DNA of 50,079 bases from Demequina lutea (GTDB lineage: Bacteria; Actinomycetota; Actinomycetes; Actinomycetales; Demequinaceae), in NCBI GenBank assembly GCA_003246255.1, contig QKAX01000113.1, forward strand, positions 1-50,079. The letters run 5' to 3'. Shown here piece after piece: positions 5,272-28,501 of this stretch (positions are counted from its first letter, which is position 1; each line of letters starts with the position of its first letter). The translations under genes were made by a program, and so were the position numbers. The notes below the pieces were generated by a model. That model saw only the letters and a list, made by a program, of their open reading frames with translations. It was not told the DNA's origin and did not search any database.

Positions 5272-6045
5272 ATGAGCATCACCGACAAGACGGCCGACGC
5301 CACGTGGGACATCGCGCAGGTGGCACGCATGAGCGGGGTCACCTCGCGCACGCTGCGCCACTACGACGACGTGGGCCTCCTCACCCCCGCGTGGACCGGC
5401 GCCGATGGCCGCCGCCACTACGGCGAGCCCGAGCTGCTGCGCCTGCAGCACATCCTTGTGCTGCGCGAGCTGGGCACAGGGCTGGACCGCATCGGCCGCA
5501 TCGTCGACGCCGACGACCAGGCCACAGTGATCGCGCTCATGCGCGATCACCTCAGCGGCCTCACGGCGGAGCGCGACCGGTACGCGCGCCTCGCCGCCAC
5601 GGTGGCGCGCACCATCGACTCCCTGGAGAGAGGCAAGACCATGAGCCCAGACCACATCTTTGACGGCTTCGATCACGAGCAGTACGAGCCCGAGGCCCGC
5701 GAGCGCTGGGGCGACGCCGCAGTCGACAGCTCCAACGCCAAGTGGGAGGGCCTCGGCAAGGACGGCCAGCAGCGCCACCTGGATACCCACCGCGAGGTGG
5801 TGGAGGCGCTGGGAGCCGCCAAGCGCGTCGGGCTGGCCGCCGAGAGCCCTGAGGTGCAGGAGGTCGTGGCCCGCCACTACGAGTGGGTATCGCTGTTCTG
5901 GACGCCCACTCGAGAGACGTACACGGGCCTCACACAGATGTACGTGGACGACGAGCGGTTCCGCCGCAACTACGACGAGGTGGCTCCGGGAGCCGCGGCC
6001 CTGCTGCGCGACGCAGCCGCGATCTGGGCGGACGAGCACCTGTAG
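5272..6045 (+). CDS. MerR-family regulator with TipAS ligand-binding domain
   Basis: 257 residues. Residues ~13-80 form a MerR winged helix (WDIAQVARMSGVTSRTLRHYDDVGLLTP), followed by a coiled-coil dimerisation helix (~80-122) and a C-terminal TipAS domain (from about residue 130, HEQYEPEARERWGD onward). TipAL-type proteins of Streptomyces bind thiopeptide and other drugs through this domain and activate their own promoter; the family role is multidrug sensing. Consistent with this, its own promoter has the 19-bp spacer with a central dyad. An internal in-frame ATG at 5641, preceded by AGAGAGG, could give the ligand-binding domain alone, as known for tipA. The 3' end is partly duplicated downstream at 6230-6280. 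The inducing ligand cannot be told from sequence. Confidence 0.93.
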   Translation: MSITDKTADATWDIAQVARMSGVTSRTLRHYDDVGLLTPAWTGADGRRHYGEPELLRLQHILVLRELGTGLDRIGRIVDADDQATVIALMRDHLSGLTAERDRYARLAATVARTIDSLERGKTMSPDHIFDGFDHEQYEPEARERWGDAAVDSSNAKWEGLGKDGQQRHLDTHREVVEALGAAKRVGLAAESPEVQEVVARHYEWVSLFWTPTRETYTGLTQMYVDDERFRRNYDEVAPGAAALLRDAAAIWADEHL

Positions 6046-6126
6046 AGGTCGGGCGCCGATGCGGCCGGGCAGGCGGGCAGGCTCGCGCGCCCGAGCAGCG
6101 CAGCGCCGGCGCGCCCACCCGCGCGC

Positions 6127-6205
6127 CGTCAGCAAGTGACTGCCATCGGCGCGCTTGAGTGCGAGTTCGGGGCGCAGAGTCGAGATCGACAGTCACTTGC
6201 TGACG
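6127..6205. repeat. Long inverted repeat in the scar downstream of the TipAS gene
   Basis: Perfect 16-bp arms (CGTCAGCAAGTGACTG at 6127-6142 and its complement at 6190-6205) flank 47 bp. A nested alternative pairing joins GCGCGCC (6121-6127) to GGCGCGC (6148-6154). It lies in a gene-free stretch of 366 bp (6046-6411). The rest of that stretch holds the duplicated regulator end, a 12-bp direct repeat (6202-6213 and 6222-6233) and the upstream region of the next gene. It looks like a small non-coding repeat element, possibly present elsewhere in the genome. Confidence 0.65.
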
Positions 6206-6229
6206 CGCGGCGGGCCAACCGGACGCGCG

Positions 6230-6280
6230 GCGGCCCTGCTGCGCGACGCAGCGGCAATCTGGGCGGACGAGCACGTGTGA
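6230..6280 (+). pseudogene. Duplicated 3' end of the TipAS regulator (gene remnant)
   Basis: 46 of 51 bp match 5995-6045, the last 16 codons and stop of the MerR/TipAS gene. Read in the same frame the copy encodes AALLRDAAAIWADEH plus V instead of L, and ends in TGA instead of TAG. Two of the differences are synonymous third-position changes, so this looks like the tail of a diverged paralogue whose body was lost, rather than a fresh copying error. It is separated from the intact gene by the inverted-repeat element. Confidence 0.65.
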
Positions 6281-6320
6281 CGACTCCTCGCGCGCGACGG
6301 CGTGCAAAGCATGCGTTCGC

Positions 6321-6357
6321 ATATGGAATAGTTGACATATCACCGTTCGTTACGGTG
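6321..6357 (+). promoter_or_regulatory. Candidate control region of the FMN reductase gene
   Basis: A consensus -35 TTGACA (6332-6337) lies inside an ATATG...CATAT inverted repeat (6321-6340), followed by a second dyad CACCGT-N5-ACGGTG (6341-6357). No good -10 is found at the normal distance, so the exact promoter is unclear. Confidence 0.35.
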
Positions 6358-6411
6358 GAGGTCGCCAACGACGCCGACGCACATCAACCCCAACACGCCA
6401 GTGGAGACATC

Positions 6412-6966
6412 ATGCGCATCGGCATCATCGTCGGCTCTCAGTCCAGCACGTCCATCAACCGCCAGGTGGCGAAGGCCCTCATCGGCCTGGCCCCCGAGGG
6501 CGTCGAAATGGCGGAGATCGCCTGGAACGAGCTCCCCATCTACACCCCCGACTACGACGCCGACTACCCGGCCGCCGGTCGCGAGTGGAAGTCCGCCATC
6601 GAGGCCTCGGACGCCATCATCATCGTGAGCCCCGAGTACTCGCGTTCCATCCCGGGTGGCCTCAAGAACGCCCTCGACTGGGCCGCTCGTCCGTGGGGCA
6701 CCAACTCGTTCAACGGCAAGCCCGTCGCCATCCTCGGCGCCTCCGGTGGCGCGATCGGCACGGCCGCGATGCAGCAGCACCTGCGCGCGATCCTCGGCCA
6801 CTTCAACGCCATCACCATGGGCCAGCCGGAGACCTTCCTGCAGATCACGCCCAGCTCGTTCGGCGCGAACGGCGAGGTCGCCGATGAGGCCCTCGGCACG
6901 ATCCTCGAGGGCTACCTCGCGGCCGTCGTGGCGCACGTGGAGCGCTTCGCTCAGGTCAACGCCTAA
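6412..6966 (+). CDS. NADPH-dependent FMN reductase (flavodoxin-like)
   Basis: 184-residue cytoplasmic flavoprotein of the NADPH-dependent FMN reductase / ArsH-ChrR group. The N-terminal strand and phosphate loop MRIGIIVGSQSSTSINRQVA binds the FMN phosphate; the second signature SPEYSRSIPGGLKNALDW (about residues 71-88) binds the isoalloxazine edge; GGAIGTAAMQQHLR follows. Enzymes of this group reduce FMN, quinones, azo dyes or chromate, and the true substrate is not visible. The frame is open for 92 codons upstream, but the conserved fold begins at the ATG chosen, and the upstream part is the repeat-rich scar. The following gene encodes a divergent relative of the same fold, so the two may act together in redox defence. 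Confidence 0.88.
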   Translation: MRIGIIVGSQSSTSINRQVAKALIGLAPEGVEMAEIAWNELPIYTPDYDADYPAAGREWKSAIEASDAIIIVSPEYSRSIPGGLKNALDWAARPWGTNSFNGKPVAILGASGGAIGTAAMQQHLRAILGHFNAITMGQPETFLQITPSSFGANGEVADEALGTILEGYLAAVVAHVERFAQVNA

Positions 6967-6974
6967 GCACCTCT

Positions 6975-6990
6975 CCCGCTCACGAGCGGG
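6975..6990 (+). terminator. Short hairpin after the FMN reductase gene
   Basis: CCCGCT-CACG-AGCGGG, a perfect 6-bp stem starting 8 bp after the stop codon. No T-run. Confidence 0.45.
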
Positions 6991-7001
6991 AATCACATGG
7001 C

Positions 7002-7051
7002 CGCCCTCCTCGTTCACTGCACAGAACTTCAGTGCAGAAACGAGGAGGGCG
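7002..7051 (+). promoter_or_regulatory. Hairpin that sequesters the ribosome binding site of the next gene
   Basis: A perfect 13-bp outer stem (7002-7014 with 7039-7051), a small internal loop, then a 5-bp inner stem (CTGCA 7017-7021 with TGCAG 7033-7037) closing an 11-nt loop. The 3' arm contains the whole Shine-Dalgarno sequence GAGGAGGG (7042-7049), and the stem ends one base before the ATG at 7053. Folded, the RNA would block translation; it may be a thermosensor, a ligand- or protein-controlled switch, or rely on ribosomes arriving from upstream. Confidence 0.7.
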
Positions 7052-7052
7052 C

Positions 7053-7787
7053 ATGCGTATCGGGCTCATGATGGGTGCCCTTGGTGGGGACGATCTCAAC
7101 ACCAAGGTGCTCGACGCCGCGAGGCGGTACATCGGCGACGGCGCCACGGTGGAGCACCTGCGCATCGCTGACTTGCCGCCCTACGCGCCATGCGACGACC
7201 TGCCCGACGCCCTCGCGGGGTTCCGTGCCCGCGCGGCCGAAATGGATGGCGTGCTGATCCTCGTCACGCAGCACCTGAGCGGCGTCACGGGAACCCTCAA
7301 GAACGCCCTCGACTGGCTCGGGGCCCCCACGAGCGCGCTCTCCGACAAGCCGGTCGCGATCGCGGGCCTTACGTGCGAGCCGGGCTCGACGTTCGCAGGC
7401 GTTCAGCAGGTGAGGTCCGCGCTCACGGCGCTCGGTGCCTCCACCATGAAGCAGCCCGACTACTCGTTCCTCGTCACTGACGACACCTTCGATGTCGAGG
7501 GCCACATCGTGGACGTGACAGTCGCCGACGACATGGTGGGCTTCCTCACCGCCGCCCGCGGGTACTTTGCTCACGAAATGCGCGCCGCCCAGGTGGACGC
7601 TCCCCAGCCGCACATCTCGGGCCAGCTGCCCTCGATGAGTGGCTCGCTTCCCTCGCTCAGCCATGGACTCTCGCGCAAGTTGGAGGCCCAGCTCGTGGCA
7701 GCCCCGTTGCACGATCACACGGGCCCCGTGTCCGCGGTCGACGCCGCCGTCAGCTCGGTGGCGAACCCTCGCAGGCACCGCGCCTAA
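7053..7787 (+). CDS. Divergent flavodoxin-like NAD(P)H reductase with C-terminal extension
   Basis: 244 residues. The first ~180 share the flavodoxin-like fold of the preceding gene: MRIGLMMGALGGDD at the N-terminus and TGTLKNALDWLG in place of the usual PGGLKNALDW. The family motif SPEYN before it is replaced by VTQHLSGV, so flavin contacts have changed. Residues ~180-244 are a Ser/Pro/Ala/His-rich tail with no recognisable fold. The ATG at 7053 is chosen over one 21 bp earlier because GAGGAGGG lies 3 nt before it and the fold begins there; that site is buried in a hairpin. The photolyase gene begins 9 bp downstream, so the two are probably cotranscribed. The substrate is unknown. Confidence 0.75.
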   Translation: MRIGLMMGALGGDDLNTKVLDAARRYIGDGATVEHLRIADLPPYAPCDDLPDALAGFRARAAEMDGVLILVTQHLSGVTGTLKNALDWLGAPTSALSDKPVAIAGLTCEPGSTFAGVQQVRSALTALGASTMKQPDYSFLVTDDTFDVEGHIVDVTVADDMVGFLTAARGYFAHEMRAAQVDAPQPHISGQLPSMSGSLPSLSHGLSRKLEAQLVAAPLHDHTGPVSAVDAAVSSVANPRRHRA

Positions 7788-7796
7788 ACCCGCTGC

Positions 7797-9134
7797 ATGA
7801 CTGCCCTGTGGTGGGTGCGCAGGGACGCACGCCTCAACGACAACCCTGCGCTGCTCGAGGCCCAGAAGCACGGCGGGGCAGCCGCGGTCTTCCCGTGGTC
7901 AGACCCCCTGGTCCGATGGTCGGGCCGCCGCCGCGCGTACCTCGCGAAGTCGCTGTGGAGCCTGCGCCATGACTCGGGAGGCGCTGTCGCAGTACGCAGA
8001 GGCAACCCGGCCGAGGTGCTCGTTGCCGCAGCCCGGGAGGCGGGCGCCACGACTGTGTGGGCGCAACGCGAGTACTCGCCCAGCGCCGTGCGCGAGCAAG
8101 AGGCGGTGGCCTCGGCGCTCGCCGAGGAGGGGCTGGCGCTCGAGCTCATCGGCTCCCCCTACGCGGTCGCTCCCGGCCGCATCCTCAAGGCCGATGGCAC
8201 TGAGTACCGCGTCTACACCCCGTTCTCCAGGGCGTGGCGTCAGCACGGCTGGCGCTCCCCCGCCGGCCCCGCGGATCCCGACGCGTTGGTCGCCCTCGAC
8301 TCCGATGTAGACCTTGACCAGATCGCCGCTCACGCCGACGGCCAGGATCCCCTGGGACACGCGCCAGCCTTCACCGAGCGGGCGTGGCTCGACCACCTCG
8401 AGGAGTTCGTCGACGGCCCCCTCCAGGACTACGCGACCGATCGCGATCGCCCGGATCGTGACGTCACCTCCCACTTGTCGATCCCGCTCGCGTGGGGCCA
8501 GATCCATCCGCGCACTATCCTGGCCGCAGCCGACGAGGCCGCCGCGAAGCACCCTGGCCTGGGCTCCGCCGTCGACAAGTTCATCTCGGAAGTCGCGTGG
8601 CGCGAGTTCCACGCGGACGTGCTTCACCACAATCCCAGCGCCATGAAGCAGTCCCTCACTCCCGTGCAGCCCGAGGACTCGTGGGCGTACGGCGATGACG
8701 CAGAAGAGGCGTATCGTGCCTGGCAGAACGGCGAGACGGGATTCCCCCTCGTGGACGCGGGGATGCGCGAGCTCGCCGCCACGGGAAGCATGCATAACCG
8801 CGTGCGCATGGTCGTGGCGAGCTTTCTCATCAAGGATCTTCACATTCCGTGGCAGCGCGGCGCCGACCACTTTCGCCGCATGCTGCTCGACTATGACCAC
8901 GCACAGAATCAGCTCAACTGGCAATGGGTGGCCGGAACCGGCCGCGACGCCGCTCCGTACTTCAGGATCTTTAACCCGGAGAGCCAGGCCGAGAAGTTCG
9001 ACCCGCGGCGCGAGTACCGGCTGCGCTGGATCCCGGACCTTGACACCCCCGCCTACCCGATGCCGATGGTGGATCACAAGGCCGAGCGGGAGGTCTCGCT
9101 CGCCGCGTACAGGCGCGGCAAGGACCCGTCCTAG
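7797..9134 (+). CDS. phrB: Class I deoxyribodipyrimidine photolyase
   Basis: 445-residue cytoplasmic FAD enzyme that repairs UV-induced cyclobutane pyrimidine dimers with blue light. The N-terminal antenna-binding domain starts TALWWVRRDARLNDNPAL; the FAD domain carries EVAWREFHADVLHH, GFPLVDAGMREL, MHNRVRMVVASFL and LNWQWVAGTGRDAAPYFRIFNP, which hold FAD and the Trp electron-transfer chain. DASH cryptochromes and (6-4) photolyases differ in these regions, so the CPD class is preferred. No Shine-Dalgarno sequence precedes the ATG, which lies 9 bp after the reductase stop, so translation probably depends on coupling. Pairing with flavin reductases may be functional (reduced flavin supply) or chance. 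Confidence 0.95.
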   Translation: MTALWWVRRDARLNDNPALLEAQKHGGAAAVFPWSDPLVRWSGRRRAYLAKSLWSLRHDSGGAVAVRRGNPAEVLVAAAREAGATTVWAQREYSPSAVREQEAVASALAEEGLALELIGSPYAVAPGRILKADGTEYRVYTPFSRAWRQHGWRSPAGPADPDALVALDSDVDLDQIAAHADGQDPLGHAPAFTERAWLDHLEEFVDGPLQDYATDRDRPDRDVTSHLSIPLAWGQIHPRTILAAADEAAAKHPGLGSAVDKFISEVAWREFHADVLHHNPSAMKQSLTPVQPEDSWAYGDDAEEAYRAWQNGETGFPLVDAGMRELAATGSMHNRVRMVVASFLIKDLHIPWQRGADHFRRMLLDYDHAQNQLNWQWVAGTGRDAAPYFRIFNPESQAEKFDPRREYRLRWIPDLDTPAYPMPMVDHKAEREVSLAAYRRGKDPS

Positions 9135-28467: not shown

Positions 28468-28501
28468 CCCGCCCTCGCCTCTTGGCGGCGGCGAGGGCGG
28501 G
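28468..28501 (+). terminator. Terminator after the GH3 gene
   Basis: Perfect 12-bp stem CCCGCCCTCGCC and its complement with a 10-nt loop, 4 bp after the GH3 stop. It extends to 13 bp before the ATG chosen for the next gene, so that gene's 5' end is packed against it. Confidence 0.7.

Follow-up and report, generated by a model that had tools for sequence, protein, structure and literature searches.

The gene for a second FMN-reductase-fold protein (g2) in Demequina lutea is preceded by a hairpin that encloses its complete Shine-Dalgarno (SD) sequence, and a predicted stress promoter is interleaved with the same hairpin. We propose, with a probability of roughly 0.6, that the hairpin is a start-site-dependent translation lock insulating g2 from transcription of the upstream gene g1. 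RNA that reads through from g1 has both hairpin arms; it would fold and leave g2 untranslated. When a thiol/oxidative-stress sigma factor is active, g2 would be transcribed from the interleaved promoter, and its RNA would begin within the upper hairpin, near 7021-7024. Because the 5' (anti-SD) arm lies between the -35 element and this predicted start, such transcripts would lack it and would have a largely open SD. The photolyase gene phr, which follows g2 closely, would perhaps be insulated from g1 transcription too.

Gene organization of the locus

The window is the whole 50,079-nt stretch of DNA analysed here, from a D. lutea genome of 2.65 Mb in 221 contigs (G000). The only other genome found with g2 belongs to the same genus (G034). 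Gene order in G000 is merR(TipAS) - g1 - g2 - phr, with 86 nt between g1 and g2 (Table 1). A 77-bp inverted-repeat element (window 6128-6204, ends GTCAGCAAGTGACTG) adjoins a partial copy of the merR 3' end (6230-6280 versus 5995-6045, 46/51 identical); G000 has one further copy of it (C195:4115-4191, one end mismatched), and none was found in G034.

Table 1. Features of the g1-g2-phr locus, in window coordinates
Feature	Position	Strand	Remark
MerR-type regulator with TipAS domain	5272..6045	+	upstream neighbour
Predicted g1 promoter, sigma-H/sigma-R-type	6325..6351	+	GGAAT-N19-GTT
g1, NADPH-dependent FMN reductase (PF03358)	6412..6966	+	
Small 7-bp hairpin past g1 stop	6974..6991	+	3' arm overlaps g2 promoter -35
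Predicted g2 -35, GGAAT	6989..6993	+	aligns with GGAAT in G034
Possible 24-aa small ORF	6997..7071	+	spans hairpin, overlaps g2 start
Hairpin 5' (anti-SD) arm CGCCCTCCTCGTT	7002..7014	+	between -35 and predicted start
Predicted g2 -10, GTT, N18 spacing	7012..7014	+	last three bases of 5' arm
Inner stem-loop	7017..7037	+	6 bp (7017-7022/7032-7037), then 2-bp GA/TC pair
Predicted g2 transcription start region	7021..7024	+	inferred, 7-10 nt past GTT
Hairpin 3' arm AACGAGGAGGGCG	7039..7051	+	holds SD GAGGAGGG at 7042-7049
g2, second FMN-reductase-fold protein (PF03358), 244 aa	7053..7787	+	
phr, DNA photolyase	7797..9134	+	9 nt past g2 stop

The hairpin over the g2 ribosome-binding site

The two arms pair perfectly over 13 bp, and one base separates the 3' arm from the g2 ATG (7053-7055). 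Sequence and folding thus confirm the preliminary description of a 13-bp perfect stem with the complete SD in its 3' arm, one base before the ATG; the inner stem, there put at 5 bp, has 6 bp plus a 2-bp pair. For the 96-nt hairpin context the minimum free energy is -48.8 kcal/mol (z -6.7), a value reached by 0 of 200 shuffles. When the 12 nt directly ahead of the ATG were kept and the 74 nt upstream of them shuffled, none of 2000 shuffles matched either the helix length over the SD or the energy. The inner parts of the hairpin also beat most shuffles, 59 of 2000 being as low in G000 and 68 of 2000 in G034.

SD-covering perfect helices were ranked in 1.46 Mb of two Demequina genomes (the window, 1.2 Mb of G034 and about 0.21 Mb of G000), where our own simple gene caller gave 1231 genes for analysis, 697 of them with an SD. 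The longest helix is that of g2, and the G034 ortholog of g2 holds rank 4. Ranks 2 (window 28503) and 3 (a GTG in G034 just past what reads as a tRNA-like 3' end) resemble hairpins behind an upstream gene, their starts being uncertain. Total fold energy of the -65 to +15 region of g2 (-39.9) is not extreme for this GC-rich DNA (5% quantile -36.1, 1% quantile -42.9), so the claim for the hairpin rests on the SD helix and not on energy.

No second copy of the hairpin was found in G000, where the other strong match was its own reverse complement and the next had E 0.07. The outer-arm pattern CCTCCTCG...CGAGGAGG...ATG occurs at 10 sites in 8 of the 44 genus genomes, and the reversed pattern at 1. 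The g2 hairpins account for two of the ten, and that of G000, read on its reverse strand, for a third; the remaining seven open frames of 31, 40 and 76 aa (three sites) or of 229 to 461 aa (four sites). An in-frame GTG at 7032 in G000, replaced by ATG in G034, lies inside the hairpin 21 nt before the g2 ATG in both species, with no SD of its own.

Two roles for the hairpin were examined and found unlikely. The sequence past the stem is a C followed by the ATG, with no U-run as an intrinsic terminator would have; a scan of 6000-8000 with loops of 3-8 found no terminator-like site with a U-run. For an RNA thermometer, modelled SD accessibility is too low at 45 C (0.0002 in G000, 0.0015 in G034). 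It is 0.0008 and 0.011 at 65 C, at most 0.0018 and 0.031 up to 75 C, and 0.024 and 0.23 at 95 C. The preliminary description had suggested a thermosensor or a ligand- or protein-controlled switch. The thermosensor is unlikely because the model still hides the SD at 65 C. For a ligand switch, no Rfam family reached its gathering score in 5800-8200, where the one match up to E 1 (mir-4716) scores 21.3 bits and would have needed 76.

A predicted stress-type promoter interleaved with the hairpin

A sigma-H/sigma-R-type motif, GGAAT-N18-GTT, covers 6989-7014 in G000, and GGAAT-N19-GTT stands at the aligned place in G034. In both species the -35 element precedes the hairpin, the -10 element lies at the inner end of the 5' arm or just past it, and the 5' arm is upstream of the predicted start. 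The core of Corynebacterium glutamicum sigma-H promoters is GGAAT-N18-19-GTT with the T of the -35 at -31, according to the portion of PMC10012870 available to us; by that numbering the g2 start would fall about 10 nt past the GTT, near 7024.

The motif appears to be in use in this genus. G000 and G034 each have one match to SigH_actino (TIGR02947) over the cut-off, and sigH itself carries the motif within 140 nt upstream in both genomes. The 1.46 Mb hold 33 sites, with 14 within 200 nt before a same-strand start and 13 of these 14 intergenic, the intergenic share being only 212 kb by our own gene calls; the reversed motif used as a control gave 9 sites, 3 of them upstream. Judged by reading the N-terminal residues of their products, the genes behind the sites comprise, among others, sigH, superoxide dismutase-, Dps- and DsbA-like genes, short-chain reductases, g1 and g2. 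Among the loci examined, the motif (N17-19) lies upstream of 30/30 g1-type, 2/2 g2, 16/20 upstream-paralog and 6/23 phr starts. A scan of 6000-8000 for sigma-70-type promoters found none.

The spacer of the g1 promoter contains a palindrome, TTGACATATCA (window 6332-6342), and similar ones are seen in many loci. A loose search of 170 nt upstream located TTGA-N3-5-TCA near g1 in 26 of 30 loci, several hits lying outside the promoter; it is absent from both g2 upstream regions, and g1 of G034 lacks the strict form. This palindrome presumably resembles the RosR operator of C. glutamicum. Our literature search found nothing linking RosR with an FMN reductase.

Modelled SD accessibility depends on where the RNA begins. 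It is 0.00009 in G000 and 0.0008 in G034 for read-through RNA, 0.38-0.40 and 0.67-0.71 for starts 7-10 nt past the GTT, and 0.33-0.43 and 0.60-0.71 over all starts from +3 to +12. The earlier claim that burial of the ribosome-binding site blocks translation is supported for RNA with both arms, by folding and by the homologous hairpin of G034, but the switches proposed with it are not. The suggestion that g2 translation depends on the upstream gene is turned around, the promoter position pointing to insulation. A start inside the hairpin, which the preliminary description had listed against its own reading, is now predicted; it changes the mechanism, and would not abolish the lock.

Certain points weigh against the lock. 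In the model, the short G000 RNAs are only partly open (0.33-0.43). The benefit of insulating g2 from g1 is also not obvious, because the two genes would share a sigma factor; the palindrome in the g1 spacer, absent from g2, may be a reason for it.

The g2 ortholog in a second species

A g2 ortholog is present in one of the 43 other genus genomes, G034, with 57% identity over residues 1-179; the remaining matches within the genus reach at most 37% and are paralogs. Beyond G034, only paralogs were found in the 44 genus genomes (E 0.001) and in a family set of 47 that contains them (1e-30). No further ortholog came from samples of the order (396 genomes) and the class (394 genomes) at E 1e-35, nor from the best 80 of 275 relatives in a scan of GTDB 220 contigs, in which G034 itself is unlisted. 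A match turned up in 40 genomes, and for 30 of these we retrieved the loci of the best matches; in many of the loci read, the genes run merR - paralog - g1 - phr.

In G034 the spacer is 73 nt long and can be aligned with that of G000 over CGGGAATC.CA.GGC, CCTCCTC, GTTCA and the SD arm. The hairpin there consists of an outer stem of 9 bp, a bulge of 3 nt and an inner stem unlike that of G000. Conservation is strongest at the SD and its complement, and in the inner half the sequence differs while pairing is kept. This comparison covers two sequences; with two only, covariation is barely testable for g2. The G034 fold is modestly better than its shuffles (z -2.4, 2/200 as low), and among 2000 shuffles 27 were as low by energy and 6 by helix.

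Of the small hairpin past the g1 stop, the 5' arm is absent from the aligned G034 spacer. The 24-aa small ORF is not conserved, as its ATG is ACG in G034, which tells against an mgtQ-type upstream ORF over the stem.

A predicted phr promoter in relatives that lack g2

After GGAAC and CTT variants had been seen in spacers, we set a loosened pattern, GGAA[TC]-N17-20-[GC]TT, for those 23 phr genes whose locus includes a gene upstream. It occurs upstream of phr in 18 of the 21 loci without g2 (in 5 of these 21 the g1-phr gap exceeds 500 nt), and the reversed pattern in 0 of 23. The two phr genes behind g2, in G000 and G034, have no loosened motif of their own. For 14 of the 18, only 8-9 nt separate the end of the -10 from the start codon, and the RNA is therefore predicted to be leaderless; in one of the 21, L027, the position taken as the start is no start codon. 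In several loci a strong stem overlaps the region of the motif, with a -35-like GGAA in or at its loop. These arrangements suggest an ancestral slot of hairpin plus promoter after g1, which would now stand before g2 in the two species that have it. The phr of g2-less loci (among L004-L031) is in itself a candidate for a leaderless, stress-driven photolyase gene; the literature search found nothing on a leaderless SigH photolyase.

Alternative explanations

The hairpin might mainly serve the 3' end of g1, as an attenuator or in termination or protection from 3' exonucleases, with the SD placed inside it by economy of space and g2 simply having its own promoter. Such a role is possible, because g2-less relatives also carry hairpins between g1 and phr: stems of 15, 14, 14 and 12 bp in L004, L006, L008 and L012 bury no well-placed SD, and the g2 hairpin begins 35 nt past the g1 stop. 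It is nevertheless unlikely to be the main one. The stem has no U-run after it in G000 or, as read, in G034, and termination would not call for an exact anti-SD arm in each of the two species. In several relatives, moreover, the hairpin loop contains or adjoins the -35-like GGAA, whereas here that element precedes the hairpin, and by this difference in position the g2-less stems are not the same stem kept in place.

The remaining explanations are all much less probable. A sequestered SD directly ahead of the start, within an unusually long helix, is how a switch in the RNA, be it a thermosensor, a riboswitch or a protein-bound element, might look, but we think this very unlikely given the burial at 65 C in both species, the lack of an Rfam match at the gathering score, and an inner stem and loop that differ between species. 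Opening by translation is rated a shade lower still. Here a ribosome on the small ORF, or one leaving g1, would unfold the stem, as mgtQ does for mgtB in Salmonella (PMC8092293, from the part available). An ATG-initiated 24-aa frame does cross the whole hairpin and end past the g2 start. Its SD-like GAGCGGG is weak and itself lies in a small hairpin, however, and in G034 the codon is ACG, with no ATG, GTG or TTG after the g1 stop and ahead of the 5' arm; the distance from that stop to the 5' arm in G000 also tells against a ribosome leaving g1. Least probable is that the repeat acts as DNA and serves as operator to some regulator of g2 transcription from its promoter: it overlaps the predicted -10 and start region, but its inner half differs between species with pairing kept, and the most conserved parts are the SD and its complement.

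Other candidate hairpins

A hairpin at window 28468-28501, perfect over 12 bp, begins 4 bases past the stop of a GH3-type glycosidase gene, and a single base separates its end from an ATG of a LacI-type regulator gene (both named by reading). It is a candidate terminator or second lock on a ribosome-binding site.

A pattern search of the genus also raised the spacer before treY, a gene named by reading its sequence and present in 43 of the 44 genomes. We fetched 30 loci and aligned the 13 closest to the query (L253-L265; 12 distinct sequences). All 13 show a hairpin built around an invariant CATGATGG and carrying GAGG in the 3' strand. Under the structure written from L261, 86.9% of cells pair, a figure that does not exceed 50.5% once the structure is slid; three pairs are changed on both sides. 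The covariation score was reached by 0 of 500 shuffles and the number of double-changed pairs by 178 of 500; a free consensus fold partly differs from the L261-based structure. The SD sits 10-15 nt from the ATG. In the modelled long RNA it is buried in 10 of the 13 (at most 0.017) and has an accessibility near 0.25 in the other three; the modelled values for the 10 are 0.11-0.64 when the RNA starts 6-9 nt behind CATGAT. The other 17 treY loci lack this stem, and some (L270, L277) fold a different one. As a lead only, the treY spacer is a possible second case of a promoter in a hairpin, its CATGATGG loop resembling a -10 element.

It is conceivable, though on present indications doubtful, that Demequina makes translation depend on where transcription starts at several loci, with stress-type promoters threaded through intercistronic hairpins and only the inner-start RNA translatable. 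Candidate cases are g2, phr in species without g2, and treY in one subclade. If this were so, neighbours in an operon could be co-transcribed yet translationally independent.

Comparison with known systems

An SD hidden in longer and open in shorter transcripts is a known device. It underlies inhibition of IS10 and IS50 transposase synthesis from read-through RNA, which protects the mobile element, and it operates at E. coli pyrC, where nucleotides control the choice of start at one promoter. Our searches of the literature for fold-back inhibition, and for Demequina together with Shine-Dalgarno, returned nothing, from which we do not claim that the arrangement is unpublished.

The Salmonella mgtQ-mgtB operon likewise has an intercistronic stem-loop that sequesters a downstream ribosome-binding site and is opened by a short ORF, as set out in the part of PMC8092293 available to us; g2 shares the position of the stem-loop, but differs in having no conserved short ORF and a promoter interleaved with the stem. 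With the sigma-H promoters of C. glutamicum, whose regulon comprises heat and oxidative stress genes, g2 has GGAAT-N18-19-GTT in common, while an interleaved hairpin over the ribosome-binding site goes unmentioned in the available portion of PMC10012870.

The closest parallel that we describe is gene e of phage T4. There, by the available part of PMC3014915, long RNA from upstream promoters folds into an SD-hiding hairpin that lowers lysozyme synthesis 100-fold, and a stage-specific promoter in the DNA encoding the 5' strand of the hairpin yields short RNAs that lack this strand and are translated. As in gene e, the folding model sequesters the g2 SD in a stable helix of the long transcript. 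The GGAAT-N18/19-GTT motif, if it acts as a promoter with the predicted start, would yield short transcripts that lose the 5' strand. Were the proposed lock correct, RNA-seq would count g2 reads that are never translated, and a bacterial chromosome would be using the T4-type promoter-inside-hairpin arrangement to make g2 deaf to read-through. Unlike the phage late promoter of gene e, that of g2, as suggested by motif and model, would be a chromosomal stress promoter of the ECF type.
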